DNA from: Nitrospirota bacterium
GTDB taxonomy: Bacteria; Nitrospirota; Nitrospiria; JACQBW01
Assembly (NCBI GenBank): GCA_016178585.1
Contig: JACOTA010000067.1
Location: forward strand, 1-59,207
Reading direction: 5' to 3'
Length of the DNA: 59,207 nucleotides
Below, piece by piece: positions 2,747 to 58,219 of the stretch. Numbering within the stretch: the first letter of the stretch is position 1; every line of letters starts with the position of its first letter. Position numbers and translations under genes: made by a program. The notes below the pieces were generated by a model, which worked only from the letters and a program-made list of their open reading frames with translations, did no database searches and had not been told where the DNA came from.

Positions 2747-2802
2747 ACTGAAGACTCTAACATGATTTCACTATAAACACAAAATCCCGTTTCTTGTCGT
2801 GC

Positions 2803-2943
2803 CCCAAGACCAGCGATAGACTTCGCACCCACTTATTAATCATGTCATTGCGAGCACCGAAGGGTGCGTGGCAATCTTATCGTAAAGTCTTAAGATTGCT
2901 TCACTTTGTTCGCAATGACAGCTTTCTAACTCTGTTCTTGGGT
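2803..2943. repeat. Family A palindromic repeat, copy 1 (between ligA and cbpA)
   Basis: An element of about 140 bp with ends CCCAAGACC / TTCTTGGG and an inner hairpin built from GTCATTGCGAG and its complement CGCAATGAC. It is nearly identical to copies at 11309-11444 (opposite orientation) and 24732-24869. Looser copies lie at 7248-7384 and 48279-48411. It fills the gap between two minus-strand genes. Confidence 0.9.
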
Positions 2944-2966
2944 CATGCCGCAATTCGTGGGCAGGA

Positions 2967-4991
2967 CTACTCTTTCACCATTTCAAGGAACTCCTCTTCG
3001 GAGAGGACCCTGACTTCCAACGCCCTGGCTTTATCCAGTTTCGAACCCGGGTTTTCACCTGCCAAAATAAAATGGGTTTTAGAACTGACCGAAGAAGTGA
3101 CCTCCCCCCCTTCTTTTTCAATTTTTTCGGTCAGTTCCTCCCTAGAATGAGATTTAAAAGTCCCTGTAATTACGACCTTTTTCCCTGCCCAGATTCCTTT
3201 GACGGGAACAGCCTCATATTCAATTTGGACCCCGGCTTTCAAAATACGGGCGATGGTCTCCCGGTTCCTCTCTTCATAAAAAAAATGGACGATATTATTT
3301 GCCAGCTCCGGCCCAATGCCAAAGATACCGGTCAACTCTTCCTGGGCCCCGTTCTCCAAACGATCGAGCGATCCAAAATGCTGACTTAAAATTTTACCAA
3401 CCGAGGAACCGATACCTCGTATACTTAAAGAATAGAGAAAACGGGAAAAAGAAATTCTTTTGGATTTCTCAATTTGTTCGATCAGGTTTTGGGTTGACTT
3501 TTCTTCCCATCCGGGAAGCCTTACCAGTTCGTCTTTTTTTGATTTTAAATAAAAAATATCTGAGAGATTTTTTAATAACCCGTTTTCATAAAGCTGGTCG
3601 ACCTTTTTCTTGCCTAAACCCGCGATATCGAATCCTTTTCTGGAGCAGAGATGGACAATTTTTCCCTGAATCTGTGCCGGACAGGAGAGATTAATACAAA
3701 AAAGATAGGCCCCCTCCTTTTCTACGGCGGCATGACAGACGGGACATTCTAAAGGCATATGGAAAGGAGTTTCCTGTCCTGTCCGTTTTTCAACAACCGG
3801 TTTAATCACTTCCGGAATAACGTCCCCCGCCCGTTCGACGAATACGGTATCTCCGACCAGGACATTTTTTTCAAGCATCTCTCCCTCGGTATGGAGGGTC
3901 GCCCTCGAAACGGTAACCCCGCCGATTTCCACCGGCTCTAAAATAGCGACAGGGGTTAAAATACCGGTCCGTCCGACCTGAACCTCGATCTTCAGAATTC
4001 GGGTCGTCATTTGCATCGGTTTAAATTTATAGGCCAGCCCCCACCTCGGATGACGGGCAGTTTCTCCGAGTTTTTGCTGATCGTCTATTTTATTGACCTT
4101 GATGACCACGCCGTCGATATCAAAGGTCATTTCTTTTCTCCCGGTTTCAATCTGATGATGTTTCTGAACGGCGGCTTCGATTGACGGACAGAGGGTCATC
4201 TCAGGAGACACCCTAAATCCCCATTCTTTCAACTGATTGAGAAGTCCGATCTGGGAATGAAATCGGGCCCCCTCGACTTTGCCTGTTCCCCATGCATAGA
4301 AATGAAGGTTCCTCCGGGCGGTAATCGCGGGGTCTAACTGCCTTAATGACCCGGAAGCCGAGTTCCTGGGGTTGGCAAATATCGGGAGGCCGTTTTCGGC
4401 CTGAATTCGGTTGATCTCCTTAAAAACCTCTTTTGGGATTAGAACTTCACCGCGGATTTCAATGTGCCGGGGAAATGGGGCGTCGGAGCCTTCGAGCCCG
4501 GGCATTTTTCTGAGACGCAGCGGGATCGTCTGAATGGTTCTCAAATTGCCGGTGATATCTTCTCCCCTAAATCCATCTCCCCTGGTCGATCCCCGGGTAA
4601 AAAGACCGTTCTCATAAACTAAAGAGGAGGAGACGCCGTCATATTTCGGTTCGACGACGTATTCAATTTCCTCCCTTTGGATCACCTTTCGAACTCGTTT
4701 ATCAAACTCAAGCGCCTCCTCTTCAGAAAACGCATTGTCAAGGCTTAGCATCGGAAGATCATGAAGAACCGTCTTGCCCAGGCTTTCTAAAGGGGCGCCC
4801 ACCCGTTGGGTCGGAGAATCGGGGGCAAGAAATTCCGGATATTTTTTTTCAAGTTCAACGAGCTGTTTGAAAAACCGATCATACTCGGCATCGGAAATGG
4901 AAGGCTGATTTAAGATATAATAAAGATAATTATGATGATTGATTTGCTCCCGAAGCGCTTTGATTTCTTTCAGAATGGGGTCCATCGTCAT
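2967..4991 (-). CDS. ligA: NAD-dependent DNA ligase LigA
   Basis: It seals nicks in duplex DNA during replication and repair, using NAD+ as the adenylate donor. At 674 residues it has the full family layout. The N-terminal Ia domain contains HHNYLYYILNQPSISDAEYD. The adenylation domain has the nucleophilic lysine in VEPKYDGVSSS (KxDG). An OB fold follows, then a four-cysteine zinc finger (CPVCHAAVEKEGAYLFCINLSC), helix-hairpin-helix repeats (IAGLGKKKVDQL, IRGIGSSVGKIL, IFGIGPELANNI) and a C-terminal BRCT domain starting at GIWAGKKVVITGTF. The start could be the first or third codon (both Met). It ends 24 bases before the family A repeat. Confidence 0.97.
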   Translation of the reverse strand: MTMDPILKEIKALREQINHHNYLYYILNQPSISDAEYDRFFKQLVELEKKYPEFLAPDSPTQRVGAPLESLGKTVLHDLPMLSLDNAFSEEEALEFDKRVRKVIQREEIEYVVEPKYDGVSSSLVYENGLFTRGSTRGDGFRGEDITGNLRTIQTIPLRLRKMPGLEGSDAPFPRHIEIRGEVLIPKEVFKEINRIQAENGLPIFANPRNSASGSLRQLDPAITARRNLHFYAWGTGKVEGARFHSQIGLLNQLKEWGFRVSPEMTLCPSIEAAVQKHHQIETGRKEMTFDIDGVVIKVNKIDDQQKLGETARHPRWGLAYKFKPMQMTTRILKIEVQVGRTGILTPVAILEPVEIGGVTVSRATLHTEGEMLEKNVLVGDTVFVERAGDVIPEVIKPVVEKRTGQETPFHMPLECPVCHAAVEKEGAYLFCINLSCPAQIQGKIVHLCSRKGFDIAGLGKKKVDQLYENGLLKNLSDIFYLKSKKDELVRLPGWEEKSTQNLIEQIEKSKRISFSRFLYSLSIRGIGSSVGKILSQHFGSLDRLENGAQEELTGIFGIGPELANNIVHFFYEERNRETIARILKAGVQIEYEAVPVKGIWAGKKVVITGTFKSHSREELTEKIEKEGGEVTSSVSSKTHFILAGENPGSKLDKARALEVRVLSEEEFLEMVKE

Positions 4992-11196: not shown

Positions 11197-13365
11197 TTAA
11201 TCTATATATAGAACGTAACCCTTCAGTGAAGGGTAGGCATTGACGAAAGTGCCTGGTATGCCATGGCGTTCCAGGCGCTTGAGAACCGTTGACTGAACGA
11301 TTACTATACCCAAGAACAGAGTTAGAAAGCTGTCATTGCGAACAAAGTGAAGCAATCTCAAGACTTTACGATAAGATTGCCACGCACCCTTCGGTGCTCG
11401 CAATGACATGATTAATAAGTGGGTGCGAAGTCTATCGCTGGTCTTTTCAAGGCTTACTTTTTCCACCCTGACCTTTATCGGATCACCGAGTCGAAACACA
11501 TTCCGGAACCTTGCCCCAACCAGGGAGTGCTTTTTTGCCTCATAGAGGTAATGATCTTCCAGCGACGAGATATGAACCAACCCTTCGACAAAAATATCGT
11601 TCAATTCAATAAAAAGCCCGAAGGAGGTCACTCCGGTAATATGTCCTTCAAACTCCTCCCCGAGCTTGTTATCCATAAACCGGACTTTTTTCAAAGCAAC
11701 CACCTGCCGCTCGGCGTCGACCGATATTCTTTCCTGGGCGGAACAATGGCTTGCGATTTCAGGCAACTCCTTTTTATAGATCCCCGCTTTTTTAGGGGAA
11801 TACTCTTTTTTTTGAGCCATTTTCAGGAGTCGATGGACCATCAGATCGGGGTATCTTCGAATAGGAGAGGTGAAATGCGCATAGTATTCCGCCGCCAGAC
11901 CAAAATGTCCGGGATTTTCCGTCGAATAAATGGCCTGCTTCATGGATCGGAGCATCAGGTGGTTGACGACCCTCTCTTCAGCCTTTCCTTTGACCTGATC
12001 CAAAACCTCCTGAAACGATTTTGGGGTGACTTTTTTGGGGGAACCTTTGAGAGAAAAACCAAGGCTTGAAATAAAAAATCTAAAATCCTCAATTTTTTCA
12101 GGAGAGGGGTTCTCATGAATCCTGTAGATAAAGGGGAGTTCCAGTTTTGCCATATGTTCTGCCACCGTTTCATTGGCCGCGAGCATGCACTCCTCGATAA
12201 TACGGTGCGCCAGGTTCCGTTCTTCTTTTAAAATCGACGTGATCTCCCCGTTAATATCGATTAAGATTTGCGGCTCGGGAAGATCAAAATCGATGCTCCC
12301 TCTCTTAAACCGTTTGTTTTTAAGCTTTAGAGCCAGATCCTTTAAAATGAAAATGGTATCGAGAAGTTCTTTCTTCCTGAGAGAAGACCTTCCGGGGCCG
12401 TTTAGAATCTCCCACACCTCCGTATAAGTCATTCTCGCATGGCTGTGGATCACGCTTTCGTAGATTTCATAATCGACCCGCTCCCCATGTTCATCAAAAA
12501 CCATTTCCACGGAATAGGTTAACCGATCCACCTGCGGATTCAGACTGCAAATTCCATTTGAAAGCGCTTCAGGGAACATCGGAACCACTTTATCGGGAAA
12601 ATAAACCGAGGTCCCTCTCTGATAGGCCTCCTTATCCATGGGACTCCCCCAGGGGACATAAGCGCTGACATCCGCGATGTGAACGCCGAGGCGAATCTGA
12701 TTGTTGGGGAGGTGTTCCGCGGAAACCGCGTCATCAAAATCTTTGGCATGCTCTCCATCAATCGTCAGGGTGACAACTTTACGCATGTCCTTCCTCCCGG
12801 CCGCCATTTTTTCATTCACTTCAGACGGCAGGAACCCTGCTTCCTCAAGCGTGGCAGACAAAAATTCCCTGGGTAGATTAAATTCCTCCATAATCATCGA
12901 GGTATCGAGAAATGGAGCATATGCCTCACCAAGGATTTTAATAATCTTCCCTTCCGGGCCCTTCCCAAAAGAAGGATAGGCCGTAATTTCAGCCACCACC
13001 ATCTCACCCACTTCCGGACGAAGTTCATAAAGCGCCGGGATATAAAGATCGTGAACCATTTTTCTGTCGTTGGGAGTGACCCATCCCCCTGTTTCGGTTT
13101 GGATATATTTTCCAACAACCTGAGTATGGCCTCTTTCAACGACCCGGACAATTTTCCCTTCGGGTTTTCCTTTTCTATTCTTTCCTTCGATCCGAATTTG
13201 AACCCTGTCCCCGTTCATGGCATCGAGCATCCGGTTTCGGGAAATATAAACATCCGGTTCCCCGGAAACCCCGGAAAGGACAAACCCGTAGCCCTCAGGA
13301 TGCACCTGGAGCTTTCCTGTCATGTCTCGCCTGGCTTCTTTAATCCGTCTTCTGATTTTTCTCAT
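11197..13365 (-). CDS. rnr: Ribonuclease R with repeat-encoded C-terminal tail
   Basis: RNase R is a processive 3'-5' exoribonuclease acting on structured RNA. Cold-shock/OB domains at the N-terminus (HPEGYGFVL) are followed by the RNB catalytic domain with its aspartates (HAKDFDDAVSAE) and an S1 domain (FEGHITGVTSFGLFIEL). The start at 13365 is chosen because GGTGGTGAA precedes that ATG and it lies one base after the fabH stop; a start at 13434 would overlap fabH. From about residue 641 the frame runs through family A repeat copy 3, giving TSDRLRTHLLIMSLRAP and a further 36 unfamiliar residues before the stop. The normal end of the S1 domain is therefore replaced. Confidence 0.93.
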   Translation of the reverse strand: MRKIRRRIKEARRDMTGKLQVHPEGYGFVLSGVSGEPDVYISRNRMLDAMNGDRVQIRIEGKNRKGKPEGKIVRVVERGHTQVVGKYIQTETGGWVTPNDRKMVHDLYIPALYELRPEVGEMVVAEITAYPSFGKGPEGKIIKILGEAYAPFLDTSMIMEEFNLPREFLSATLEEAGFLPSEVNEKMAAGRKDMRKVVTLTIDGEHAKDFDDAVSAEHLPNNQIRLGVHIADVSAYVPWGSPMDKEAYQRGTSVYFPDKVVPMFPEALSNGICSLNPQVDRLTYSVEMVFDEHGERVDYEIYESVIHSHARMTYTEVWEILNGPGRSSLRKKELLDTIFILKDLALKLKNKRFKRGSIDFDLPEPQILIDINGEITSILKEERNLAHRIIEECMLAANETVAEHMAKLELPFIYRIHENPSPEKIEDFRFFISSLGFSLKGSPKKVTPKSFQEVLDQVKGKAEERVVNHLMLRSMKQAIYSTENPGHFGLAAEYYAHFTSPIRRYPDLMVHRLLKMAQKKEYSPKKAGIYKKELPEIASHCSAQERISVDAERQVVALKKVRFMDNKLGEEFEGHITGVTSFGLFIELNDIFVEGLVHISSLEDHYLYEAKKHSLVGARFRNVFRLGDPIKVRVEKVSLEKTSDRLRTHLLIMSLRAPKGAWQSYRKVLRLLHFVRNDSFLTLFLGIVIVQSTVLKRLERHGIPGTFVNAYPSLKGYVLYID
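11309..11444. repeat. Family A palindromic repeat, copy 3, inside the 3' end of rnr
   Basis: This copy is the reverse complement of copies 1 and 4 with only a few differences. It lies within the rnr frame, so its sense strand is translated without a stop. It ends where native S1-domain coding (VRVEKVSLEK) begins. Confidence 0.93.
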
Positions 13366-30410: not shown

Positions 30411-30859
30411 TTAGTGACGTTCATACAAAAATTTCAGAATAGGTTTTTTCAAAGATTGATAGGAAGATAATTCCATAACGGCCAAGCGAGCGCGACATTC
30501 TCATACACCGTAAGCCATGGAAGGAGCGCATGGCTTTGAAAAACTACCCCCCTGTCCGGACCCGGTTCTCTTATTTCTTTTCCCTCCAAAATAACCCCGC
30601 CAGAAGTCGGAGAGATCAGCCCGGCGGCAATGGAAAGAAGCGTGCTTTTACCGCACCCGGAATGACCGATCAGGGTGACAAACTCTCCTGAATCGATCTT
30701 GAGATTAACATTTTTTAATGCTTGATACTCCCCCCCTTTTGTTCGAAAAGTTTTAGACACCATGCTGATTTCCAGCAGAGGATGAAGTAAAGAAGGTTGA
30801 TTGGCCGGTTGGGTCAACCTACTTTCTGTCGCAGGAAAAGATTCGAATAAAGCGTGCAC
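30411..30859 (-). pseudogene. nrtD: Nitrate ABC transporter ATPase (NrtC/D type), internally deleted
   Basis: The 136-residue frame at 30449-30859 has Walker A (GHSGCGKSTLL) and the Q loop (VVFQSHALLPWLTVYENVALA). It then stops, without signature LSGG, Walker B or H loop; a normal NrtC/D ATPase is about 260 residues or more. Directly after the break, in a different frame (30411-30476), the sequence codes SSYQSLKKPILKFLYERH, which looks like the family's extreme C-terminus. About half of the ATPase is therefore missing and the frame is broken, so it should not hydrolyse ATP. The permease gene is eight bases upstream. An assembly error is the other explanation. Confidence 0.8.
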
Positions 30860-33432: not shown

Positions 33433-33450
33433 TTGCAACTTATATGCCAA
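33433..33450 (-). promoter_or_regulatory. Sigma-54 promoter of the CBS-nrtAB unit
   Basis: TTGGCATATAAGTTGCAA matches the -24/-12 consensus (TGGCAC-N5-TTGCA), with GG and GC exactly 12 apart. It lies about 48 bases upstream of the CBS gene in the right direction. Sigma-54 control implies an NtrC-like activator and expression under nitrogen limitation. Confidence 0.85.
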
Positions 33451-33764: not shown

Positions 33765-34970
33765 CTAAAAATCGAAAGGAATCAAGGAAACTTTAGCCCC
33801 GTCCTCTAATTTTTCAAGGTGTTCAGGGAGGTCCATTAAACAATTCGCTTCGACCATGGAATGAATCAGGTGAGATCCCTGTTCTCCGGTTGTTTTAACC
33901 CTCCATTCATGGCCCTCAGAGAAAACAAGCCCTCTTAAAAAGGTCCGCAACCCTTTCTTTTTTCTGATTTCATGAGTGAGTCTGGCATTAAAGGGCGCCG
34001 GAAAATATTTAGCCGCGCCTCCCATTTTTTTCAAAAACGGCTCCACGAGAAGCTTGAAGGTCACCATGCAGGAAACCGGATTCCCCGGAAGTCCAAAAAA
34101 AGGTTTCCCATTGAATTCCCCAAAAGCAAATGGAGCCCCGGGTCTCATGGCTACCCGCCAAAAGTTCATCTTTCCATGGGTTGTCAGCACCTCTTTGACA
34201 TAATCAAAATCCCCCATTGAAACGCCCCCGGAGATTACAAGAATATCCGCTGAACTTCCCTCCTGAATCTTTCGCAACAGCGCGTCTTTGGAATCCGGAG
34301 AAACCCCCAGAAAAAGGGGCTCGCCGCCGGCTTCTAAAACCTGAGCGCAAAGGGCATGGCCGTTTGAATTGTAGATTTTATTTTCAGCTCTGGGTTCGTT
34401 TAATTCGGCCAATTCATCGCCGGTAGAGAGAACCGCGACTTTCGGCTTTTTAAAAACAGAGACGGACCCTTTCCCTAAAGAGGCCAGCATGGCGATTTCC
34501 GCGGGACGGATTTTCTTTCCTTGATTTAAAATGACTTCCCCTTTGCGAAAATCCTCCCCTTTACGACGAATATGATCCCCTTTTCCGCCGATCTTTTGAA
34601 TCAGAACCTTCTCTCCTGTTTTGTCGGTCACCTCCACGGGAACCACAGTATCGGCCCCAAACGGCACCTGTGCGCCGGTCATAATTTTTGCGCACTCCCC
34701 TTTTGAAAGCGGAAATCGAGGCGTATGCCCCGCGGGGATGACTTCAACGATTTTTAACGACGCCGGATTTCCCGTTAGGACAGACCGAATGTCTTCCCAC
34801 TGGAGGGCATATCCATCCATGGCCGAATTGTCCCAGGGAGGTTGATCATGCAAAGCCAGGATATCGTTTGCCAGAATTCGCCCGAGAGCGGACTGGAGCA
34901 AACATTCCTCCGGAGCAGTTCTCAGATTATTTTGAAGAATCCGGGCTAAAGCTTCGTCAACCGATATCAT
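33765..34970 (-). CDS. moeA: Molybdopterin molybdotransferase
   Basis: MoeA inserts molybdate into adenylated molybdopterin to make the molybdenum cofactor needed by the nitrate reductase nearby. The 401-residue protein has the family opening ISVDEALARIL, the PPWDNSAMDGYA motif, TGAQVPFGADTVVPVE and the MPT-binding region VLSTGDEL...NSNGHALCAQVLEAGGE with ISGGVSMGDFDYV and LPGNPVS. All are as expected for an active enzyme. It overlaps the end of mobA by 14 bases. It is the last gene of the long assimilation run before the 380-base gap. Confidence 0.96.
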   Translation of the reverse strand: MISVDEALARILQNNLRTAPEECLLQSALGRILANDILALHDQPPWDNSAMDGYALQWEDIRSVLTGNPASLKIVEVIPAGHTPRFPLSKGECAKIMTGAQVPFGADTVVPVEVTDKTGEKVLIQKIGGKGDHIRRKGEDFRKGEVILNQGKKIRPAEIAMLASLGKGSVSVFKKPKVAVLSTGDELAELNEPRAENKIYNSNGHALCAQVLEAGGEPLFLGVSPDSKDALLRKIQEGSSADILVISGGVSMGDFDYVKEVLTTHGKMNFWRVAMRPGAPFAFGEFNGKPFFGLPGNPVSCMVTFKLLVEPFLKKMGGAAKYFPAPFNARLTHEIRKKKGLRTFLRGLVFSEGHEWRVKTTGEQGSHLIHSMVEANCLMDLPEHLEKLEDGAKVSLIPFDF

Positions 34971-35550
34971 GCTGGCCCATCTCCAGGAATCGATTTAACT
35001 CTTCTGGCGTATTCACATTGACGAGACTTAAGAGGTTTGGATCTAAAGGCTTGATTTCGTCCGCCCCTATTTCAAGGGTCCTGATCCGTCCAAGAAAATC
35101 CATCATTTTAACCTCCCCTGTTTGGAGGCGTGTTTCCATCCGGGAAAGAACTCCTTTAGAATAAACACCGTGAAGGGGATGTAAACCGTCCGGGGTTTTC
35201 AGGACCACCGCGTCAAAACCCTTAAGTTTTTCGGTTAAAAACTGAATAACCTTTGGATTTAAGAACGGCATATCGCATGCCGCCGCAAAGACGGGGCCTT
35301 TTGAATAAAAAAGTCCCGTATAAATACCCCCTAAAGGGCCCCCGTTCGGATATCGATCGGTAAAAACCGGGATTTCAAAAGAAAGATAAGGCTCTCTCGT
35401 TTTAGCAATGATAAACCTTTCTTTAAAAAGGGGTTTTAAGGTATCAAGAGTCCGTTGAATAAGACTTTTTCCTTTAAATTCAATAAAAGCCTTATCCCTT
35501 CCCATCCGGAGGCTTTCACCTCCAGCCAGCACAATTGCGGTGTTAACCAT
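34957..35550 (-). CDS. mobA: Molybdenum cofactor guanylyltransferase
   Basis: MobA attaches GMP to the molybdenum cofactor to form the bis-MGD used by DMSO-reductase-family enzymes, including the nitrate reductase in this cluster. The GTP-binding motif LAGGESLRMGRDKA is at residues 8-21, followed by PNGGPLGGIYTGL and the metal site AACDMPFLNPKV. At 197 residues it is a stand-alone MobA. It overlaps moeA, so the two are translationally coupled. Confidence 0.95.
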   Translation of the reverse strand: MVNTAIVLAGGESLRMGRDKAFIEFKGKSLIQRTLDTLKPLFKERFIIAKTREPYLSFEIPVFTDRYPNGGPLGGIYTGLFYSKGPVFAAACDMPFLNPKVIQFLTEKLKGFDAVVLKTPDGLHPLHGVYSKGVLSRMETRLQTGEVKMMDFLGRIRTLEIGADEIKPLDPNLLSLVNVNTPEELNRFLEMGQHDIG

Positions 35551-35729: not shown

Positions 35730-36032
35730 CTAACTCTTTAAATAAATTTCTCCATTTTTAAGGACAACTTCATAGGTCCTCACTTTTTCATATTCGTTCT
35801 TTACGCAACCCGTCTTTAAATTAACCTTGCGGTAATGCAAGGGGCAGACCACTTCTTCTCCAAGGATTAACCCGTCAGAGAGAGGCCCTCCAAGATGCGG
35901 ACACAAATTTGAAATTGCGAAAATTTTATTTCCGAGATTAAATACCCCAACCGCTTCTCCATTAAGAAAGTATCTTCGCCCTTCCCCTTGAGGAATATCC
36001 TGGCAGTTGCCAACCTTAATCAGTCTTTCCAC
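35730..36032 (-). CDS. nirD: Nitrite reductase small subunit (Rieske type)
   Basis: A 100-residue Rieske-fold protein. The [2Fe-2S] ligands are intact: LCPHLGGPL (CxH) and VCPLHYRKV (CxxH), which means it could carry a cluster, unlike some NirD proteins that have lost the ligands. NirD partners NirB in NAD(P)H-dependent reduction of nitrite to ammonium. It overlaps the nirB 3' end by 17 bases. Confidence 0.92.
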   Translation of the reverse strand: MERLIKVGNCQDIPQGEGRRYFLNGEAVGVFNLGNKIFAISNLCPHLGGPLSDGLILGEEVVCPLHYRKVNLKTGCVKNEYEKVRTYEVVLKNGEIYLKS

Positions 36033-38445
36033 CTGACACCAATTCTTTAAATTGATAGGGGTGTACCGGCCTCTGACTCTCCGTTTTCCAGGGATCGACG
36101 ACCGCTTCTTTTGAAAGCCTGAAATGTTCTAAAAGCTCGGAGGGCCGTGGAGACTCCGAATCAAAAAGCTCCTGTCTTATTTTTTCTATCCCGACGCGAA
36201 TGGCAAAATCGTAGGTCCTCTCAAGATAGTTCCCCTCCTCCCGGTAATATTGTAAAAAAAGAGTTGCGGCTCTGATCGCTTCTTCACCCGTTTTAACGGC
36301 GATCAGCAAATCCCCTTTTCGAACCGTCATCCCCGCCGCGCCGCCGACGTAAATTTCCCAACCGGTCTGGATTGCCACGATGCCAATGTCTTTCACATAG
36401 GATTCCGCGCAATTCCGGGGACACCCGGATACCGCCATTTTAACCTTATGGGGGGTGTAAAGCCCTTCAAACAGCTTTTCCATTTCAATCCCGAGAGAAG
36501 TCGAATCCTGGACCCCAAAACGGCAAAACTCGGTCCCGACACAGGTTTTTACCGTCCTGATTGCTTTGGCATAAGCATGTCCCGACGGCATTCCAAGATC
36601 GGCCCAAATGAGCGGGAGCTGGTCTTTCTTAACGCCGAGGAGATCGATCCTCTGTCCGCCGGTTAATTTCACCATAGGGACTTCGTATTTGTCAGCCACG
36701 TCAGCAATTCGGCGCAACTCAGAGGAAGACGTTACCCCGCCGTAAATCCTCGGAACCACCGAAAAGGTACCGTCCTTCTGGATATTGGCATGAACCCGAT
36801 CGTTAATATATCTGGCGTTTCGCTCCTCTTTGTGACGCTCCAGCCAGATTTCAGACAAAAGATAACTCAATCCGGGCTTGCAATAGGCGCACCCCACGCC
36901 GTTTCCCAACCGGGTTAAAACCTCTGAAGGGGCCCTTAACTCCATTTCGCGGATCTGACTCACGAGTTCCTTTCTTGACAGGATAAAACAGGGACAAAAG
37001 AAATCCTGTTTTTTGCCTACCGCCACATATTCCCCTCCCAAGACCTCTTGAAGAATTTGGTCAACCAGCGGTCCACAGCTTTTGCAGGAGGTACAGGCTT
37101 TCGTTTTTTCGCCAACCCCCTCCCGGGTCGTTAATTCATACTCTTTAACGGCACAGACAATCGTCTTTTTGGTTACCCCCATGCATCCGCAAATGGTGTC
37201 GTTATCTCCCAAAACCATCTGCGCCTGACTACCGGGTGTAGTTTCACCTAATAAAAGGGTCCTCCGGAAGAGCGTGACATCGGTCTGATTTTTAACCAGT
37301 TGAAGCAGACGGCCTCCATCGTTGATATCTCCCAGCAAAATTGCCCCAACGATCCGATTCCCCTGCAATACAATTTTTTTATATAAAGAAATCCCCCTGT
37401 CTGAATAGGTCAGTGACTCACATCCCGGGCCCGTCCCCATAAAATTACCCATGGAAACCAGGTCAATTCCAGCCACCTTTAAGGTGGTGGCCACCACCGA
37501 TCCTTCATAATTCTGAGCCGGTTTTCCAATCAGGGTATTGGCCGCCACTCGCGCCTGTTCATATAAAGGGGCAACGATTCCATAGGTTTTTCCCCGATGT
37601 TCAACACATTCTCCCACCGCGTAGACTCCGGGATGGCTGGTTTCCATCGCGTCATTAACGATGATCCCCCGGTTCGTTTTAATCCCCGCCATTTTTGCCA
37701 ATTCGATATTCGGCCGAATGCCGGTCGAAATGACCACCATGTCTGCTTCGTACGCTTTTCCGTTTGAAAATTCGACCCCTTCGACGGTACCGTTGCCGAT
37801 AATTTCCGTTGCTGAATGATTTAAATGAACCGTCATCCCTAAATGTTCAATCTCCTTCTTTAGGATTAATCCGGCTTCATCATCCAGTTGCAGTTCCATT
37901 AACCGGTCAACCAGGTGAAAAATGGTGACGTTCAGTCCCCGTTGAACCAGCGCTCTCCCCGCTTCGAGCCCCAGCAACCCTCCCCCGATTACGGCGACTC
38001 TTCTGGACTGTTTCGAAAATTCAATCATTCCCTCCGTGTCCTCCATATTCCGGTAGGCAAAGACGCCCCTTTTTTCGACCCCTTTGACGGGTGGAATAAA
38101 GGGATGACTCCCCGTGGCGATGAGAAGTTTGTCATAAGGGGTAACTCTACCTTCATCGTCCTGGAGGGTTTTGGCCGTGGGATCAATGGCGGTCACTTTT
38201 TTGTTCAGATGGAGATGAATATGGTTTTTGAAGTACCACTCCATGCTATTTAAATAGGTCTCTTCGGGCTTTATTTTACCGGAGAGGATATCGGACAAAA
38301 GAATCCGGTTATAGTTGACATACGGTTCCGCGCCAAAAACGGTAATATCAAAATCTCCCTTGAGCGCAAGAACGTTTTCAACCACCGCGATCCCGGCCAT
38401 CCCGTTCCCGATGACTACTAATTTTGGCTTACTTCCAATTTGCAT
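36016..38445 (-). CDS. nirB: Assimilatory nitrite reductase large subunit
   Basis: The 809-residue flavo-sirohaem enzyme reduces nitrite to ammonium with six electrons from NAD(P)H in the cytoplasm. The N-terminal FAD and NAD domains show VVIGNGMAGIAVVENV and AVIGGGLLGLEAGRAL. A BFD-like [2Fe-2S] domain follows with CGCMGVTKKTIV...CTSCKSCGPLV. The C-terminal sirohaem domain has the [4Fe-4S]/sirohaem ligands TCVGTEFCRFG (C-x5-C) and SGCPRNCAES (C-x3-C). An extra Cys-rich segment (FFCPCFILSRKEL...GVGCAYCKPGL) lies between. A GGAG site precedes the ATG, which is just beyond a family C element. Confidence 0.95.
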   Translation of the reverse strand: MQIGSKPKLVVIGNGMAGIAVVENVLALKGDFDITVFGAEPYVNYNRILLSDILSGKIKPEETYLNSMEWYFKNHIHLHLNKKVTAIDPTAKTLQDDEGRVTPYDKLLIATGSHPFIPPVKGVEKRGVFAYRNMEDTEGMIEFSKQSRRVAVIGGGLLGLEAGRALVQRGLNVTIFHLVDRLMELQLDDEAGLILKKEIEHLGMTVHLNHSATEIIGNGTVEGVEFSNGKAYEADMVVISTGIRPNIELAKMAGIKTNRGIIVNDAMETSHPGVYAVGECVEHRGKTYGIVAPLYEQARVAANTLIGKPAQNYEGSVVATTLKVAGIDLVSMGNFMGTGPGCESLTYSDRGISLYKKIVLQGNRIVGAILLGDINDGGRLLQLVKNQTDVTLFRRTLLLGETTPGSQAQMVLGDNDTICGCMGVTKKTIVCAVKEYELTTREGVGEKTKACTSCKSCGPLVDQILQEVLGGEYVAVGKKQDFFCPCFILSRKELVSQIREMELRAPSEVLTRLGNGVGCAYCKPGLSYLLSEIWLERHKEERNARYINDRVHANIQKDGTFSVVPRIYGGVTSSSELRRIADVADKYEVPMVKLTGGQRIDLLGVKKDQLPLIWADLGMPSGHAYAKAIRTVKTCVGTEFCRFGVQDSTSLGIEMEKLFEGLYTPHKVKMAVSGCPRNCAESYVKDIGIVAIQTGWEIYVGGAAGMTVRKGDLLIAVKTGEEAIRAATLFLQYYREEGNYLERTYDFAIRVGIEKIRQELFDSESPRPSELLEHFRLSKEAVVDPWKTESQRPVHPYQFKELVSGGKTD

Positions 38446-38590: not shown

Positions 38591-40252
38591 TCAATGACAT
38601 TGATCTAATACCCCGACAACCCGATCCTTTGCCAGTCCTGTTTCCCTGGCAAAATTTTCAAACCCTTTATTTTTCAGAAAAAAAGCTCCCGGCATCGTGG
38701 TGGGAATGACCACGTTGTAAAAAATAGCCCGATCAACGATTTGCCAAGCCGCCGCGGTCAAAAACGAAATTAGGATCGATCCGAAAAGAGCTCCCGAAAC
38801 CGGTAGAAACAGCATGACGACCAGGTTGAGAAAAAGAAAACCCTGTAAAACCCAGTCGAGTTTGAGGAACCCCGGGTAAGCCTCCTGAAGGTGCTGAAAC
38901 GACGCCTGAGACTCTCCGCTGTGACCTTTTAGATACCGGAAAAACAAAATTCGGGAAAAGTAACGAATGAGAAGATAAAGTGAAACCAATCCCAGGAGGC
39001 CTTGTTTTAACCCGGTATAAAAGGAGATCTGCCGACCGCTAAAGACGCCACCGATGAGCGGATAGGCTAAAAAGAGGCTCGTCATTAACAAACCTAAAAT
39101 CGTCATGGTTCCGAAAAACGAGACAACCGTATGGGGGTGATTCCAATAGGGTCGGGCCGGAATCAAATAACAGTTGGACATGGCGACGAGACTCAAAATT
39201 CCCATTATCGCCGTTCCTCCTCCCAACAGGGTCAACAGCCCGGAAGGAAGCAGGTGAAAGGTCTGAAAAAAGATATAAGCGGCCAACCCGCCGAAAAAAC
39301 TCCCGACGGTCAAAATCTCCCGGCTGACCCAGGAATAACGGAGATTATTCAGCGCCCGGTAGCAATATTGAGGTTTTCCCAGGTGTCCGGTCGAAAGCGC
39401 CAGGGCGGTAAATAAACAGCCCGCCAACGTCAACAACATCGCCCTCTCCGGAGCGAGAGGGGAGAGCGGACTGCCAAAAAAAGAGTAACCGATGAAGGCT
39501 AAAAACCCTCCGACGACCATTTGAGACAACAGCGTAAAAAAGACCAGGGGCGTTTCGTTTGAAGCGAGGGAATTCCAGGTCAGGGGTTTGAGCGCCAACG
39601 GCTTTATCCCTCCCCCTTGGGAATGTTTGTTGGAGTAGTTGACCGGTTCCACATCGGTACGATATTGGATATCCGGGGTTTCTTTTATCTGCTTAAACCG
39701 GATATTCGGTTGGGAAAGGGAAGGGTCGGGAAAACCTGAAATCTGAAGGAGGGCCTGACCCCTTTCATTCTCCATCTTTGCAACCTCGCCGAATTCAAGC
39801 GCATGGCCAAGACAGGCAGAAACGCACGCCGGTTTCAGTCCCACGTCAAGCCGATCGACACACATATTACATTTGCTGACCGACCCCGTTTCAGGGTTAT
39901 AGGCAGGCGCGTTATAAGGGCAAACCCACGTGCAATATTGACAGCCGAAACAGATATCCGAGTCCTGAATCACCGCGCCATATTTTTCATATTTAACGTA
40001 AGCGCCCGTCGGGCACCCTTTCAAGCAGACCGGGTCTGTACAATGATTGCAGGCCATCGACGTGTTGACCCGTGTAAATTGGGGATAAGAGCCCCCTTCG
40101 ACATAACCGACCTTTCTCCACGCGATATGAGACGGGAGATTGTTTTTTTCACTGCAGGCCGCCTCGCAGGAATGACATCCGATACAGTTATCTGCCGTAA
40201 AATGGAAGCCCATCTGGGTTTGAACCGGGAACATCACTTCGGCTTTAGACAT
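38591..40252 (-). CDS. Fused DmsB-DmsC type electron-transfer subunit of the nitrate reductase
   Basis: The 553-residue protein joins two modules. Residues about 1-190 form a four-cluster ferredoxin like DmsB, with CIGCHSCEAAC, CNHCTDPVCLKGC, CFGCQYCTWVC and CNMC...CVSAC. After a linker, residues about 225-530 form roughly eight membrane helices like DmsC, the quinol-oxidising anchor (for example VVSFFGTMTILGLLMTSLFLAYPLIG). This would pass electrons from the quinol pool to the catalytic subunit encoded directly upstream, whose end it overlaps by 19 bases. AGGTGGGG precedes the ATG. Assimilatory nitrate reductases usually use ferredoxin or NADH partners, so this pairing is unusual. Confidence 0.85.
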   Translation of the reverse strand: MSKAEVMFPVQTQMGFHFTADNCIGCHSCEAACSEKNNLPSHIAWRKVGYVEGGSYPQFTRVNTSMACNHCTDPVCLKGCPTGAYVKYEKYGAVIQDSDICFGCQYCTWVCPYNAPAYNPETGSVSKCNMCVDRLDVGLKPACVSACLGHALEFGEVAKMENERGQALLQISGFPDPSLSQPNIRFKQIKETPDIQYRTDVEPVNYSNKHSQGGGIKPLALKPLTWNSLASNETPLVFFTLLSQMVVGGFLAFIGYSFFGSPLSPLAPERAMLLTLAGCLFTALALSTGHLGKPQYCYRALNNLRYSWVSREILTVGSFFGGLAAYIFFQTFHLLPSGLLTLLGGGTAIMGILSLVAMSNCYLIPARPYWNHPHTVVSFFGTMTILGLLMTSLFLAYPLIGGVFSGRQISFYTGLKQGLLGLVSLYLLIRYFSRILFFRYLKGHSGESQASFQHLQEAYPGFLKLDWVLQGFLFLNLVVMLFLPVSGALFGSILISFLTAAAWQIVDRAIFYNVVIPTTMPGAFFLKNKGFENFARETGLAKDRVVGVLDQCH

Positions 40253-42630
40253 AGTTCCCCACCTATCTTATTTGGGGGCCCTTCGTGAAATCCTCCGATG
40301 CCCCCAATCCCCGTCATTCGCACAGGCACAGCCTGATGCTCATTCCCTTTCCGATGAGTCGTATGGTTCAAATTCAAAGACCCTGATTCATTGACAGGAG
40401 CGATCTTAACGGCACACTGCTTGTAGGCTGGTTGACGGGAGTAAGGATCCAATAACCCCAGCGTAAGCAAATTCGCCCCCTTTGCAAAATGAAACGGGAT
40501 AAAAACCATGCCGGGAGCAACCCGCTCCGTCAATTGCACCATAACCTGCAACTTTCCCCTCCGTGATTCCATTTGAGCATGGTCCATGTGGGATAAATCT
40601 AACCTCCGAGCGTCTCCCGGATGCATTTCCACGTACGGAACAGGTGAAAATTTGTTTAAATTTCCAATTTTTCCCGTTTTAGTCCGCGTGTGCCAATGTT
40701 CAATGACCCGGCCGGTATTAAGCCAGAAAGGATATTCAAGATCAGGACGTTCGTTATTATCGATAAAATCGAGCGGGATAAGATTGGCTTTTCCTGATTC
40801 CGAAGCAAATTTTCCGTCCGAATATAACCGGGGGGTTCCCGGTCCTTCTGAAGAGTTAGCTTCGCTGGTGAACCCGGGCTTGCGCATCAGGCTTTGCCTG
40901 TGCGAAAGCGGGGCTTGGGGGTATTGAGAGCTTTGCTCGAAGACCCCCAAATCTGATCGAGCGGGCCACTGAATGCCGCCATGCTTCTTCAGCAGATCGT
41001 AAGTCATCCCGGAATAGTCGCATAACCTTCCTTTGCTGACCTCCCCCATCTCGGCAAAAACTGCCTCCGGTGTTTTACTTTTCATCAACGGGCCCAGCCC
41101 CATCTTTTCAGCAAGCCCGATAAAAATATCGAGGTCAGGTTTTGCTTCACCAGGCGGATCGACCGCTTTTTCGACCAGGTTGACTCTCCGTTCGGTGTTG
41201 GTAAATGTTCCGGTTTTCTCCGACCACATCGCCGCCGGAAGGTAAACATCCGCGTATTTTGCCGACTCAACCGAATAGTAAACGTCCTGTACAACTAAAA
41301 ATTCCAATTGATTTAAGATCTTTTCAATCCGCCCCGTATCCGCCATCGACGTCATCGGATTGGTGGCAATCAACCAGAGCCCTTTAATAATCCCCTTCTC
41401 GATTTCCGGAAAAATATCGGTCATCTGGAGACCCCGTTTTGCGGGAAAAATCGATTCATCCAGCCCCCACAATCGGGCGATTTCTTCGCGATGCTCAGGG
41501 TTTTCCAATTGACGATACGCTGGAAGGCCGGAGCAGGATGAAAACTCCCGGGTTCCCATCGCATTGCATTGTCCGGTAATGGAAAGTGACGTTCCTCCGG
41601 GTTTTCCGATATTTCCGGTAATCAGCGCCAGGTTATTGATCGCTACAACGCCATCTGTTCCGTGTGTTGACTGATTAATGCCCATGGTCCAAATCGACAT
41701 GGCAGATTTAGCTTTTCCGTAAATCCTGGCGACCCGGATGATTGTGTCTCTGGGGATACCGGTTATTTTCTCCGCGTAAGCCGGGGAAAATTTCAAAACC
41801 ATTGATCTAAATTCAGAAAATCCTTTAGTATGAGAGGCAATATAATCCTCCTTATGAAGCCGCTCTTCCAAAATGACATGGGCCAGAGCGTTTAATAAAA
41901 CAACGTCAGTTCCAGGTAAAATAGGGAGATGAATGTCTGCCATCTGGGCGAAGGTCGTTACCCGCGGATCAATCACAATGACCGGAAAATGCCGTTTCTC
42001 TAATTCTGTCTTAAGCCGGTAATAAATAATAGGATGGCACTCGACCAGATTTGATCCAAAAGCCAGGAGACATTCCGTATGCTCAAAATCGTCATAACAG
42101 CCCGGCGGGCCGTCGCTTCCAAATGATTTTTTATATCCCGAAACCGCGCTCGCCATGCATAAAGTGGTGTTTCCATCATAATTGTTGGTCCCCAGTCCTC
42201 CCCGGACCAACTTTCCAAGGGTGTAAAATTCTTCCGTATAAATCTGTCCGGTGCTTACAACCGCCAGCGCGTCTTTCCCATAGGTTTTCATGATCCGGCT
42301 GAATTCAAAGGCCGTGTGGTCCAAAACCTGATCCCAGGAGAGTCGTTCCATCGGTAGATTCCGGTTCTTTCGGTGTAGCGGGTATTCCCCTCTCTCGCGG
42401 GTTGTCATCACCTCAAATTCCCAGATCCCCTTCAGGCAAAGCTTTCCTTGATTAACGGGATGATCTGCTTTCCCGCGAACGGTTACGGCTTTTCCGTCTT
42501 TAACCCCCAGTTCGATACCGCATCCGGTTGAACAGTAGCCGCAGGTCGTGTAGACCCATTTATCAACCGGTTTCTGGTGAATCTTCGGAACCCGGGTTTG
42601 CCGCTGTTTATTGGTAAACCATAAATTCAT
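40234..42630 (-). CDS. nasA: Molybdopterin nitrate reductase catalytic subunit (NasA type), carrying two repeat-encoded segments
   Basis: A 798-residue DMSO-reductase-family enzyme reducing nitrate to nitrite. The [4Fe-4S] motif TTCGYCSTGCGIELGV...GKLCLKG is near residues 28-67. NYDGNTTLCMASAVSGYKKSFGSDGPPGCYDDFEH, with the Mo-binding cysteine, and WTMGINQSTHGTDGV are classical Nas/Nap segments. No Tat signal is seen, so it is cytoplasmic, which suits assimilation. Residues about 560-584 (FEQSSQYPQAPLSHRQS) come from a family B repeat at 40881-40951. The tail from about residue 760 (MTGIGGIGGFHEGPP) comes from another at 40268-40351, carrying the frame over the start of the next gene. An AGGTGA site precedes the ATG. 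Confidence 0.92.
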   Translation of the reverse strand: MNLWFTNKQRQTRVPKIHQKPVDKWVYTTCGYCSTGCGIELGVKDGKAVTVRGKADHPVNQGKLCLKGIWEFEVMTTRERGEYPLHRKNRNLPMERLSWDQVLDHTAFEFSRIMKTYGKDALAVVSTGQIYTEEFYTLGKLVRGGLGTNNYDGNTTLCMASAVSGYKKSFGSDGPPGCYDDFEHTECLLAFGSNLVECHPIIYYRLKTELEKRHFPVIVIDPRVTTFAQMADIHLPILPGTDVVLLNALAHVILEERLHKEDYIASHTKGFSEFRSMVLKFSPAYAEKITGIPRDTIIRVARIYGKAKSAMSIWTMGINQSTHGTDGVVAINNLALITGNIGKPGGTSLSITGQCNAMGTREFSSCSGLPAYRQLENPEHREEIARLWGLDESIFPAKRGLQMTDIFPEIEKGIIKGLWLIATNPMTSMADTGRIEKILNQLEFLVVQDVYYSVESAKYADVYLPAAMWSEKTGTFTNTERRVNLVEKAVDPPGEAKPDLDIFIGLAEKMGLGPLMKSKTPEAVFAEMGEVSKGRLCDYSGMTYDLLKKHGGIQWPARSDLGVFEQSSQYPQAPLSHRQSLMRKPGFTSEANSSEGPGTPRLYSDGKFASESGKANLIPLDFIDNNERPDLEYPFWLNTGRVIEHWHTRTKTGKIGNLNKFSPVPYVEMHPGDARRLDLSHMDHAQMESRRGKLQVMVQLTERVAPGMVFIPFHFAKGANLLTLGLLDPYSRQPAYKQCAVKIAPVNESGSLNLNHTTHRKGNEHQAVPVRMTGIGGIGGFHEGPPNKIGGELCLKPK
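40268..40351. repeat. Family B palindromic repeat, copy 4, in the nasA tail
   Basis: It reads TATTTGGGGGCCC, TTCGTGAAATCCTCCGATG, CCCCCAATCCCCG and CACAGGCACAGCCTGATGC in the standard order. It is translated in frame on the minus strand at the end of nasA. Confidence 0.82.
40881..40951. repeat. Family B palindromic repeat, copy 5 (opposite orientation), within nasA
   Basis: GCGCATCAGGCTTTGCCTG, GAAAGCGGGGCTTGGGGG and GAGAGCTTTGCTCGAAGACCC are the reverse of the usual order. It is translated in frame on the minus strand and adds about 24 residues inside the reductase. Confidence 0.8.
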
Positions 42631-42659: not shown

Positions 42660-42795
42660 CAGCAACCTAGCCGTTGAGAAGGGGTTAGTTGCAAGGCGGA
42701 ACGAGACCTCGCACCGGAGCGTACAGAGTTAGTACGTGAGGATGCGAGGGTGAAGTGACAACGCAGCAAATAGCCCCTTATCGACGGATCAGTTA
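42660..42795. repeat. Family D repeat, copy 1, between narK and nasA
   Basis: It shares the layout of the copy at 55452-55578. On the minus strand TTGCTGCGTT is followed by a CACGTAC...GTACGC centre and CTTGCAA near the other end. Sequence identity is moderate. Confidence 0.55.
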
Positions 42796-44049
42796 TCCGC
42801 CCCAGACCACGTCCATGGATACCCGTCCTGATGCAGTCAGTCCCTGTGAACGACTGGCCCCGATCAGCCATTTTCTTCTTTTCCAGGATCTTTGATAAAT
42901 CAAGACCAGACTCAGAAAACCCGAAAAAAGCACCGCGCCGAAAACAAAAAAGCCGTTTCCAAAAGAGCCGGTCATATCTTTTAGAAAACCAAAAAGGGTG
43001 GGAAGGAAAAATCCTCCCATCCCTCCTGCCGCTCCGACAATTCCGGTAATCATTCCTATTTCTGCTTTAAACCGTTGAGGAATAATTTGGAAAACCGATC
43101 CATTTCCCATTCCCAAACAAAGTAACGTAAAAAATAGAAAGAAAATTGCCCATTTCAAGGAAGGGAGCATTCCAATGCCTGCCATTAAAACCGTCACGGT
43201 CATAAACAATACCGAAAGAACTTTCACCCCTCCAAACCGATCAGAAATATATCCTCCGATAGGACGGCAAAACGAGCCGGCAAACACACAAAGCGCCATG
43301 AGATTTCCCGCCATGATTTTGCTTAATTGATACTGGTCATGAAAAAAAATCGGCAAATAACTCGCCAGCCCGACGAACCCTCCAAAAGTCACGGCATAGA
43401 AGAAATTAAACCACCAGCAATCCGAAGTTTTGAGAATCTGCAAATACGACCGGAACTGTTTCGGTTCAGGTTGATGAGGACTGTCTTTAGCAAAAAATAA
43501 AAAAGCCGCCAAAGTCATCAAGACAGGGACTAAAGCCAGACCAAAAACGGCATGCCATCCCCAGAGACCGGCTAACCGCGGAGCCGCCAATGCGGTAAAC
43601 ACTGTTCCGCTGTTCCCTGCGCCTGCAATTCCCAGGGCCATCCCTTGAGATTCAGGAGGATACCAGCGGCTGGCCAGAGGAAGGGCAACGGCAAAACTTG
43701 CCCCTGCCACTCCTAATAAAAGACCCATCGCCAGAACTTGTGAAAAAGAGCCTGCAAACAACCACCCCCATAAGAGAGGAATCGTGGTGAGAAGCAACCC
43801 TATGACTCCCGTTCTTTTTGGACCCAGGTAATCGGTTAAAAATCCCGCCGGAAGCCTGAGCATTGCCCCGCCAAGAAGCGGGAAAGCCACCATGAGTCCT
43901 TTTTGTGTCGACGTTAAGGCAAGATCCTGAGTCACATACAAAGCAAGCGGGCCTAATAACACCCAGACCATAAAACTGATATCAAAATAAAGAAAGGCAG
44001 AAAATAAAGAGCCGGGATGTCCCTGTTTGATCGCTTTAATGAGTGTCAT
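42793..44049 (-). CDS. narK: Nitrate/nitrite MFS transporter
   Basis: A major-facilitator protein of 418 residues with 12 membrane helices. Both nitrate signatures are present: AGAGNSGTVFTALAAPRLA in helix 5 and GMGNGSVFQIIPQRF in helix 11. It should import nitrate, or exchange nitrite for nitrate, across the inner membrane. The start is set at 44049 (MTLIKAIK) because it overlaps the stop of the NifI1-like gene by four bases (ATGA); an earlier in-frame ATG would lie deep in that gene. With the NrtABC genes damaged, NarK is probably the main importer. Confidence 0.94.
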   Translation of the reverse strand: MTLIKAIKQGHPGSLFSAFLYFDISFMVWVLLGPLALYVTQDLALTSTQKGLMVAFPLLGGAMLRLPAGFLTDYLGPKRTGVIGLLLTTIPLLWGWLFAGSFSQVLAMGLLLGVAGASFAVALPLASRWYPPESQGMALGIAGAGNSGTVFTALAAPRLAGLWGWHAVFGLALVPVLMTLAAFLFFAKDSPHQPEPKQFRSYLQILKTSDCWWFNFFYAVTFGGFVGLASYLPIFFHDQYQLSKIMAGNLMALCVFAGSFCRPIGGYISDRFGGVKVLSVLFMTVTVLMAGIGMLPSLKWAIFFLFFTLLCLGMGNGSVFQIIPQRFKAEIGMITGIVGAAGGMGGFFLPTLFGFLKDMTGSFGNGFFVFGAVLFSGFLSLVLIYQRSWKRRKWLIGASRSQGLTASGRVSMDVVWGG

Positions 44050-44372
44050 TTTTGGATCTCTCCCGTCCGGATGGTAAAGACTTCCTCTATCGATGATACG
44101 AAAATTTTCCCATCGCCGTAATTCCCTGTAAATGCGGCTTTGGAAATAGCATTGATTGCTTTTTCGCATTCTTGATCTTCCACAACAATCATGAGCATGA
44201 GTTTGGATAACTCTTCATAGATGGTGTCCCCCACCTGAACCCCCCGTTGTTTCCCACGCCCTAAGACATCCACTTTCGTCATTCCATAAATTCCTTCAGA
44301 TTCCAATTGCCGCAAAACTTCCGCTTCTTTTTCCGGGCGAATAATGGCTTTAATCATTTTCATTGGAGGCAT
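44046..44372 (-). CDS. NifI1-like P-II protein
   Basis: A 108-residue P-II fold protein. Its T-loop region reads GRGKQRGVQVGDTIYEELSKLMLMIVVED, which resembles the NifI1 group and not GlnB/GlnK, where the uridylylated YRGAEY motif would be. The start MKMIKAIIRPEKEAEVL and the end TGNYGDGKIFVSSIEEVFTIRTGE are standard P-II blocks that bind ATP and 2-oxoglutarate. NifI1 and NifI2 together inhibit nitrogenase in methanogens; here the pair leads into narK and the nitrate genes. AAGGAG lies six bases before the ATG. It overlaps the upstream NifI2-like gene by 13 bases. Confidence 0.85.
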   Translation of the reverse strand: MPPMKMIKAIIRPEKEAEVLRQLESEGIYGMTKVDVLGRGKQRGVQVGDTIYEELSKLMLMIVVEDQECEKAINAISKAAFTGNYGDGKIFVSSIEEVFTIRTGEIQK

Positions 44373-44725
44373 ACTTCTCCTTCTAATCCATTTCTAATTT
44401 GAATTGCCTCTTCGACAGGAAGGACAAATATTTTGCCGTCCCCCGGTTTTCCACTCTGATTTGATCGGATCAAACTTTGAATGACCAAAGGGACATCCCG
44501 GTCGGCAACAATTAAAGAAAGGTATATTTTAGGAACAAACTGGATTTCGATTTTGTCTTTCTTTCCTCTCCAAAAAAAGAACGCCCTCGGCGCATATCGA
44601 AGACCTCTCTGCCGGCTCCTCCCCAACACGCGAAAAACGGTATAAGCAGGAAACCCTTCGGATTGAAGATTTTGCTTGGTTGCAAAAGCTTTGGACGGTC
44701 TGATCAATGCAATGATTTCTTTCAT
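44360..44725 (-). CDS. NifI2-like P-II protein
   Basis: A 121-residue P-II protein resembling NifI2. The start MKEIIALIRPSKAFATKQNLQSEGFPAYTVFRVLGR fits that group. The T-loop is longer and very basic/aromatic (RAFFFWRGKKDKIEIQFVPK), with no uridylylation tyrosine motif. The end TGKPGDGKIFVLPVEEAIQIRN-like block keeps the nucleotide-binding loop (the actual residues are SGKPGDGKIFVLPVEEA). It is the first gene of the assimilation operon, only about eight bases from the expected start of a sigma-54 transcript, so its leader is very short. Confidence 0.82.
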   Translation of the reverse strand: MKEIIALIRPSKAFATKQNLQSEGFPAYTVFRVLGRSRQRGLRYAPRAFFFWRGKKDKIEIQFVPKIYLSLIVADRDVPLVIQSLIRSNQSGKPGDGKIFVLPVEEAIQIRNGLEGEVCLQ

Positions 44726-44741
44726 ATACGTTGAAAGAATA

Positions 44742-44759
44742 ATGCAAACGCTATGCCAT
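44742..44759 (-). promoter_or_regulatory. Sigma-54 promoter of the nitrate assimilation operon
   Basis: TGGCATAGCGTTTGCA carries GG and GC 12 bases apart, as in the -24/-12 consensus. It is the only good promoter seen upstream of the NifI2-like gene. Transcription would start near 44732. Confidence 0.82.
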
Positions 44760-55083: not shown

Positions 55084-55443
<360 letters not shown>

Positions 55444-58200: not shown

Positions 58201-58219
58201 TTTGCAACCTTAATGCCAA
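58201..58219 (-). promoter_or_regulatory. Sigma-54 promoter of the porin-amtB-glnB operon
   Basis: TTGGCATTAAGGTTGCAAA fits the -24/-12 consensus almost perfectly. Transcription should start near 58192, leaving a leader of about 68 bases before the porin. Confidence 0.88.

Follow-up and report, generated by a model that had tools for sequence, protein, structure and literature searches.

A NifI-type P-II pair at the head of a nitrate assimilation operon in a Nitrospirota bacterium, a candidate nitrogen-status brake on nitrate use

In the 59-kb window analysed here (the whole stretch of 59,207 nucleotides from a Nitrospirota bacterium), two adjacent P-II genes, one of NifI1 type and the other best read as NifI2 type, head an operon for nitrate assimilation, and pairs of the same kind are found beside nitrate genes in six phyla. 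With a probability of about two in three, they are a nitrate-dedicated NifI1,2 module that would inhibit nitrate import or nitrate reduction at low 2-oxoglutarate; the proposal of the initial annotation, made from the sequence alone, that the pair may gate nitrate import or the reductase fits the evidence set out below. As far as could be found, NifI1,2 is known only as a regulator of nitrogenase, where it blocks the NifH site on NifDK, an effect reversed by 2-oxoglutarate and Mg-ATP (PMC9765008). The recurrence of the arrangement in at least six phyla suggests that this switch has been reused for the control of nitrate assimilation.

The genes of the operon are the following:
44360-44725 (including the stop), minus strand: PII-A, P-II protein of 121 residues, best read as NifI2-type, operon gene 1 (PF00543, 66.8 bits, cut-off 25)
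44046-44363, minus strand: PII-B, NifI1-type P-II protein of 105 residues (PF00543, 95.9 bits, cut-off 25)
42793-44049, minus strand: narK, nitrate/nitrite transporter of the MFS type (TIGR00886, 302 bits; PF07690)
40234-42630, minus strand: nasA-type molybdopterin nitrate reductase, 798 residues (PF00384, PF01568, PF04879)
38591-40252, minus strand: single DmsB-DmsC fusion, Fe-S protein and membrane anchor, 553 residues (PF13247, PF04976)
36016-38445, minus strand: nirB, large subunit of NADH-dependent nitrite reductase (TIGR02374, 906 bits, above cut-off)
35730-36032, minus strand: nirD-like Rieske subunit (PF13806, PF00355)
34957-35550, minus strand: mobA-like molybdenum cofactor nucleotidyltransferase (PF12804)
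33765-34970, minus strand: moeA, molybdenum cofactor insertion (PF03453, PF00994, PF03454)

The NCBIfam and Pfam models thus bear out the gene order read from the letters alone, in which the two P-II genes lead into narK, nasA, DmsBC, nirB, nirD, mobA and moeA; the nasA product scores 524 bits with the NCBIfam model for NasC and 612 bits with a formate dehydrogenase model, in both cases below the model's own cut-off. PII-B begins with the ATG at 44363, which shares 4 bp with the stop of PII-A (caATGAaa), and there is no need for the longer open reading frame starting at 44372; the ATG of narK at 44049, which supersedes the start at 44169 given by the ORF-caller, overlaps the PII-B stop, also by 4 bp. 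On the strength of these overlaps, the three genes almost certainly share a single transcript.

Upstream of the operon, and of two others, lies a sigma-54-type promoter element:
44743-44758, minus strand: -24/-12 element TGGCATAGCGTTTGCA, exact match, 33 bases before the PII-A ATG
33434-33449, minus strand: second element, perfect match, before CBS-nrtAB
58203-58218, minus strand: third element, perfect match, before porin-amtB-glnK-glnD

The pattern TGGCAY-N5-TTGCW thus occurs three times in the window against 0.07 expected, each time before a nitrogen operon; as it was written after the first element had been seen, it is the other two that provide independent evidence. In both same-family relatives (L100 and L101) the element precedes PII-A at the same distance (-31 to -33), although the flanks differ. 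A gene for rpoN, which same-family G198 possesses, was found neither in the source genome nor in the assembly G199; its neighbour lptB, a normally essential gene, is missing from these two assemblies as well, which makes an assembly gap likelier than a loss. As a separate observation, the ABC ATPase frame that follows nrtAB (30449-30859) is short, 136 residues, and covers only the first half of PF00005, so that this nitrate-type ABC importer may be broken or served by another ATPase.

The assignment of PII-B to the NifI1 type is firm on the combined evidence of sequence comparisons, and the NifI2 type is the best, though not the exclusive, reading of PII-A. Both proteins find their best PDB match in 9p1x, an entry whose chain A is nitrogenase alpha, and which is thus a nitrogenase-NifI complex, with chain G in six and chain H in 12 copies: PII-A matches chain G (1e-23, 87 bits; best GlnB 71 bits) and PII-B chain H (5e-32, 113 bits; best GlnK 82 bits, 3e-22). 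Profiles were built for nif NifI1 and nif NifI2, from six sequences each, and for GlnK, from 23, the nif reference operons being L064, L074, L076 and L082, verified with nifH and/or nifD models, and L072, similar by eye. The NifI1 profile wins for 50 of 50 PII-B proteins, by at least 36 bits over GlnK, and the NifI2 profile for 41 of 41 PII-A proteins, with a smallest margin of 4 bits; for the pair in the window the scores are 149 vs 92 bits (PII-B) and 113.7 vs 84.2 bits (PII-A). A tree of 115 P-II domains resolves GlnK as one clade (93), NifI2 with PII-A (87-88) and NifI1 with PII-B (99). In the phylogeny, which had been suggested as a check on the NifI reading, 20 GlnK rows thus stand apart from both proteins, PII-B falling within the NifI1 clade and PII-A grouping with NifI2, with the caveat that, the domain being short, the AU test does not reject a tree joining GlnK and PII-A (p 0.56) and does not strictly exclude one joining GlnK and PII-B alone (p 0.18). 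The same test rejects the nif pair as one clade excluding the nitrate pair (p 0.007), and the nitrate PII-A and PII-B proteins form subclades of their own, distinct from nif NifI. Among the NCBIfam models no NifI model matched, even on NifI proteins of nif operons, and the E. coli GlnB and GlnK models match below cut-off. An AF2 model of PII-A (pLDDT 82.5) confirms the P-II fold, and its Foldseek search returns many GlnK and GlnB structures, without separating GlnK from NifI2.

The T-loops, taken from Q39 to K58, point in the same direction for PII-B, being of 14 residues in 56 of 56 NifI1 and PII-B proteins and of 18 in 23 of 23 GlnK proteins; in the window PII-B also has T at position 101 in place of R101, as in NifI1. 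By alignment, neither P-II protein of the operon has Tyr51, as had been stated of the uridylylation tyrosine. The loop of PII-A is of another kind:
44531-44608, minus strand: PII-A T-loop RGLRYAPRAFFFWRGKKDKIEIQFVP, between the equivalents of Q39 and K58, from alignment and charge count

It comprises 26 residues, with a net charge of +5 and six aromatics, contains the FFFWRGKKDK motif already remarked upon, and is a low-confidence loop in the AF2 model. Kept in L100 and L101, the loop is shared by three genera of its family; a second family, whose cluster has NarK and lacks DmsBC, possesses a related loop that is likewise basic. In six nif sequences the NifI2 T-loop spans 24-33 residues with a charge of -6 to 0, whereas nitrate PII-A loops span 16-26 residues; the long acidic loop, whose status as a defining trait of NifI2 is not certain given the six sequences, is absent from PII-A. 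The mean charge is +2.3 in PII-A and -2.7 in nif NifI2 (p 1.6e-4, with rows that are not independent), a difference which implies that the contacts must differ as well. The idea that the basic and aromatic loop faces a membrane partner is partly supported by the conservation in three genera; DmsBC is disfavoured as that partner, since the second family with such a loop has no DmsBC in its cluster, and NarK is favoured, if there is a membrane partner at all. In Omnitrophota, the PII-A T-loop differs between the NirA-linked and the NarK/NasA-linked copies of one genome, which suits target-specific contact surfaces. The ligand residues Q39, K58, G87 and G89 and the GDG(K/R) motif are kept in most members of nitrate pairs, so that effectors similar to those of NifI1,2 are expected; PII-A lacks R103 in the SUOX branch described below and R101 in the window, and its nucleotide binding may be altered.

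The pair is by no means confined to one assembly, as a survey of genomes of the kind initially proposed as a check made clear. Of 198 evenly drawn genomes of Nitrospirota (a phylum assignment based on the named records that matched), eight have PII-A in addition to GlnK, each time directly before PII-B and mostly followed by narK; the majority of PII-A matches in the phylum, being GlnK genes next to amtB, were excluded on the grounds of their context. About 16 of 40 close relatives carry PII-A, as judged by score, with the context read for most. When 84,980 species were scanned for a PII-A pattern, open by construction to contexts other than nitrate, 41 loci were obtained: about 22 nitrate-type pairs (a lower bound owing to the pattern), five nif operons and ten GlnK-amtB loci, the few others being fragments. 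The nitrate-type pairs belong to Nitrospirota, Acidobacteriota, Lindowbacteria, Omnitrophota, Chloroflexota (SAR202/Dehalococcoidia) and a euryarchaeal MAG; the carriers are mostly MAGs, a few of which could be misbinned, and the pattern rests on many assemblies. As the order PII-A, PII-B, narK recurs in several families and phyla, the placement of the pair at the head of a nitrate operon is real and not due to chance.

The architecture of the clusters varies around the pair. The window and L100 share the order A-B-narK-nasA, while in L101 A-B-narK is followed by a single NasA-NirB fusion of 1603 residues (L101:8252-13060), which brings nitrate and nitrite reductase into one chain. A second family (L102, L104-L107) has a protein of the sulfite oxidase (SUOX) family, a NirB-like protein, A, B and narK, followed by amtB-GlnK-glnD; in many other clusters, SUOX is fused to A, followed by B, narK or another MFS protein, the NirB-like protein and a third P-II that is NifI1-like. 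The NirB-like protein, of about 1090 residues with two NIR_SIR modules, is longer than classical NirB (L040:12008-15298, L042:6201-9473, L043:6208-9465). In Omnitrophota, one set of PII-A and PII-B lies around NirA and a second, A-B-narK-nasA, in the same genome; in SAR202 the order is A-SUOX-MFS-NirA-B. Where A and B are adjacent, a 4-bp overlap is common, and the order is A-B in nitrate clusters and B-A in nif operons. The pair is found with nitrate genes whichever the reductase-side partner, be it NasA, the NasA-NirB fusion, NirA or a probably cytoplasmic SUOX molybdoprotein, and narK is a further partner. The third P-II gene stands without a NifI2-like partner of its own at the end of many clusters (e.g. 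L040:15229-15633, L042:5844-6197), which counts against the preferred explanation, as do the altered T-loop charge, the arginines missing from PII-A and the tree of PII-A with GlnK that the AU test does not reject; in a Nitrospira MAG, a NifI1-like P-II gene, also without a NifI2-like partner, directly precedes nasA (L077:2199-2531).

A stronger clue to the target than any T-loop, and one that could not be seen from the window alone, is that relatives carry PII-A covalently fused to a molybdoenzyme. Frames of 371-406 residues in 13 distinct genomes join a SUOX-type molybdopterin domain (PF00174, 87-91 bits) in their N-terminal part to PII-A at the C-terminus, and examples adjoin narK and nitrite reductase genes (L040:9354-10454, L042:9846-10967, L057:720-1808 and others). 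The fusion retains the invariant Moco cysteine, the likely molybdenum ligand; conservation extends over the two domains but not over the linker. No signal peptide is visible, so that the protein is probably cytoplasmic. Among 21 pair-bearing genomes, one has both NasA (scored as present from 66% identity upwards or when part of the cluster) and SUOX, six have NasA only, 13 SUOX only and one neither (Fisher p 8.5e-4, a generous value as the genomes are related); this near-exclusion suggests, although it does not prove, that the SUOX protein performs nitrate reduction. In the PDB it is related to sulfite oxidases and MsrP and, most weakly, to yeast nitrate reductase, so that sequence alone does not decide the substrate. 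The MsrP-like protein found elsewhere in the source genome (L050) matches at 32% and was rejected as the fusion partner. On the complete chromosome of Manganitrophus GAC4 the fused gene is split over shifted frames (L052:7098-8354), perhaps by a sequencing error, and it is intact in a relative (L111).

From the observed family, operon linkage, conservation and fusion, we infer complex formation, effectors, inhibition and target as follows. PII-A and PII-B would form a mixed complex like NifI1,2 that senses 2-oxoglutarate and ATP/ADP; with plentiful fixed nitrogen, and hence low 2-oxoglutarate, the complex would bind and block the nitrate assimilation machinery, in the window NarK and NasA-DmsBC, from which 2-oxoglutarate and Mg-ATP would release it. 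The sigma-54-type promoter would serve to co-produce sensor and target under nitrogen limitation. The most likely contact would be the reductase, slightly ahead of NarK as a close second: by analogy, NifI1,2 keeps the electron donor from docking on nitrogenase, and in relatives PII-A is tethered to a molybdoenzyme, while the transporter has in its favour that A-B-narK is a constant order and that two families with NarK have the basic aromatic loop in common.

The narrower case of such gating in which the pair plugs NarK directly, as GlnK blocks AmtB, and leaves the reductase untouched, is the less probable one, though the best placed of the alternatives. PII-A, PII-B and narK adjoin one another in most clusters, and in the window PII-B and narK overlap by 4 bp, while the reductases vary; NarK and not DmsBC is the partner common to the two families with the basic aromatic loop, and cyanobacterial P-II inhibits nitrate import through NrtC/NrtD (PMC6603209); however, PII-A is fused to a soluble molybdoenzyme, and sets of PII-A and PII-B flank NirA in Omnitrophota with no narK between them. 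It seems unlikely that the pair activates or assembles enzymes without inhibition, for instance as a channelling scaffold that links SUOX or NasA with NarK and NirB: a scaffold would also be compatible with the covalent fusion and the close co-occurrence, but NifI1,2 on nitrogenase (PMC9765008) and P-II on the cyanobacterial nitrate importer (PMC6603209) are inhibitory, and the ligand residues are kept.

That the two proteins are GlnB/GlnK paralogs which signal to general targets, e.g. NtrB, GlnE or AmtB, and lie by nitrate genes through chance is very improbable and largely refuted. They are P-II proteins by Pfam, and the AU test does not reject PII-A with GlnK, but PII-B falls in the NifI1 clade, NifI profiles are favoured in 91 of 91 cases, Tyr51 is absent, the PII-B loop has 14 and not 18 residues, and the linkage to nitrate genes extends over six phyla. 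Furthermore, the P-II genes of the source genome (2.45 Mb, 96% complete, 82 contigs) number three, and the amtB/glnD neighbourhood is occupied by the third and last, not by PII-A or PII-B:
55084-55422, minus strand: ordinary GlnK with Tyr51 present, between amtB and glnD

The absence of nif genes, initially noted for the window, holds for the genome, in which a PF00148 search for nifDK gave no match and no convincing nifH was found, the PF00142 matches reaching at most 38.7 bits, in our reading the level of ParA/Mrp-like ATPases, against 440-454 bits with the nifH model for the true nifH of relatives. The lack of nitrogenase might recall a functionless remnant of a lost nif operon, an idea hardly credible in view of the 81-87% identity to relatives, the conserved T-loop, promoter element and overlaps, the nitrate-specific subclade and the order A-B instead of the nif order B-A.

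Compared with known systems, the preferred reading, a nitrate-dedicated NifI1,2 module, comes closest to the nif NifI1/NifI2 of methanogens and anaerobes (9p1x), with which the pair shares the two sequence types, for PII-A as the best reading, the adjacency of the genes inside the operon of the enzyme, the 14-residue T-loop of PII-B, T at 101 and the ligand residues; it differs in its nitrate genes instead of nifHDK, in gene order, in the shorter and basic PII-A loop and in its own subclades. With sigma-54-dependent, nitrogen-controlled GlnK/AmtB it has in common the P-II fold, the type of promoter and the adjacent transporter gene, but not Tyr51, T-loop lengths or clade, and the genome has its own GlnK-AmtB. 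P-II acts on nitrate use according to nitrogen status also in cyanobacteria, by control of uptake through NrtC/NrtD of NrtABCD (PMC6603209), and in mycobacteria, where it affects nitrate and nitrite assimilation (PMC11001197); in those organisms one general P-II has many targets, with an ABC importer in cyanobacteria, whereas here a dedicated NifI-type pair goes with an MFS importer. The fused protein shares the PF00174 domain and the invariant Moco cysteine with sulfite oxidase, MsrP and eukaryotic nitrate reductase, but is short, has no visible signal peptide and carries P-II at its C-terminus; P-II is not among the sulfite oxidase-family fusions of Table 4 in PMC6147048. The open-access literature searched gave no description of nitrate operons that contain a NifI-type pair, nor of a fusion between P-II and a SUOX protein, although mention elsewhere is possible.

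With a nitrate branch in six phyla, NifI1,2 would be a re-targetable control module, and the branch would offer comparative material on how P-II T-loops choose their partners; if true, it would account for ammonium rapidly halting nitrate use in uncultured members of Nitrospirota, Omnitrophota and SAR202. Somewhat short of even odds is the wider proposal that NifI1,2 is a general post-translational brake, re-targeted from nitrogenase to nitrate assimilation and, in some bacteria, covalently built into an unrecognised cytoplasmic nitrate reductase of the SUOX family, a molybdoenzyme with its own nitrogen-status sensor; the fused protein may be a bacterial counterpart of the eukaryotic-type nitrate reductase.

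Elsewhere in the window, one peptide stretch (SDRLRTHLLIMSLRAPKGAWQS...LLHFVRNDSFLTLFLG) has two coding copies, at about 2794-3150 and 11197-11400, one copy forming the C-terminal end of an RNase R-like frame; it looks like a dispersed repeat.
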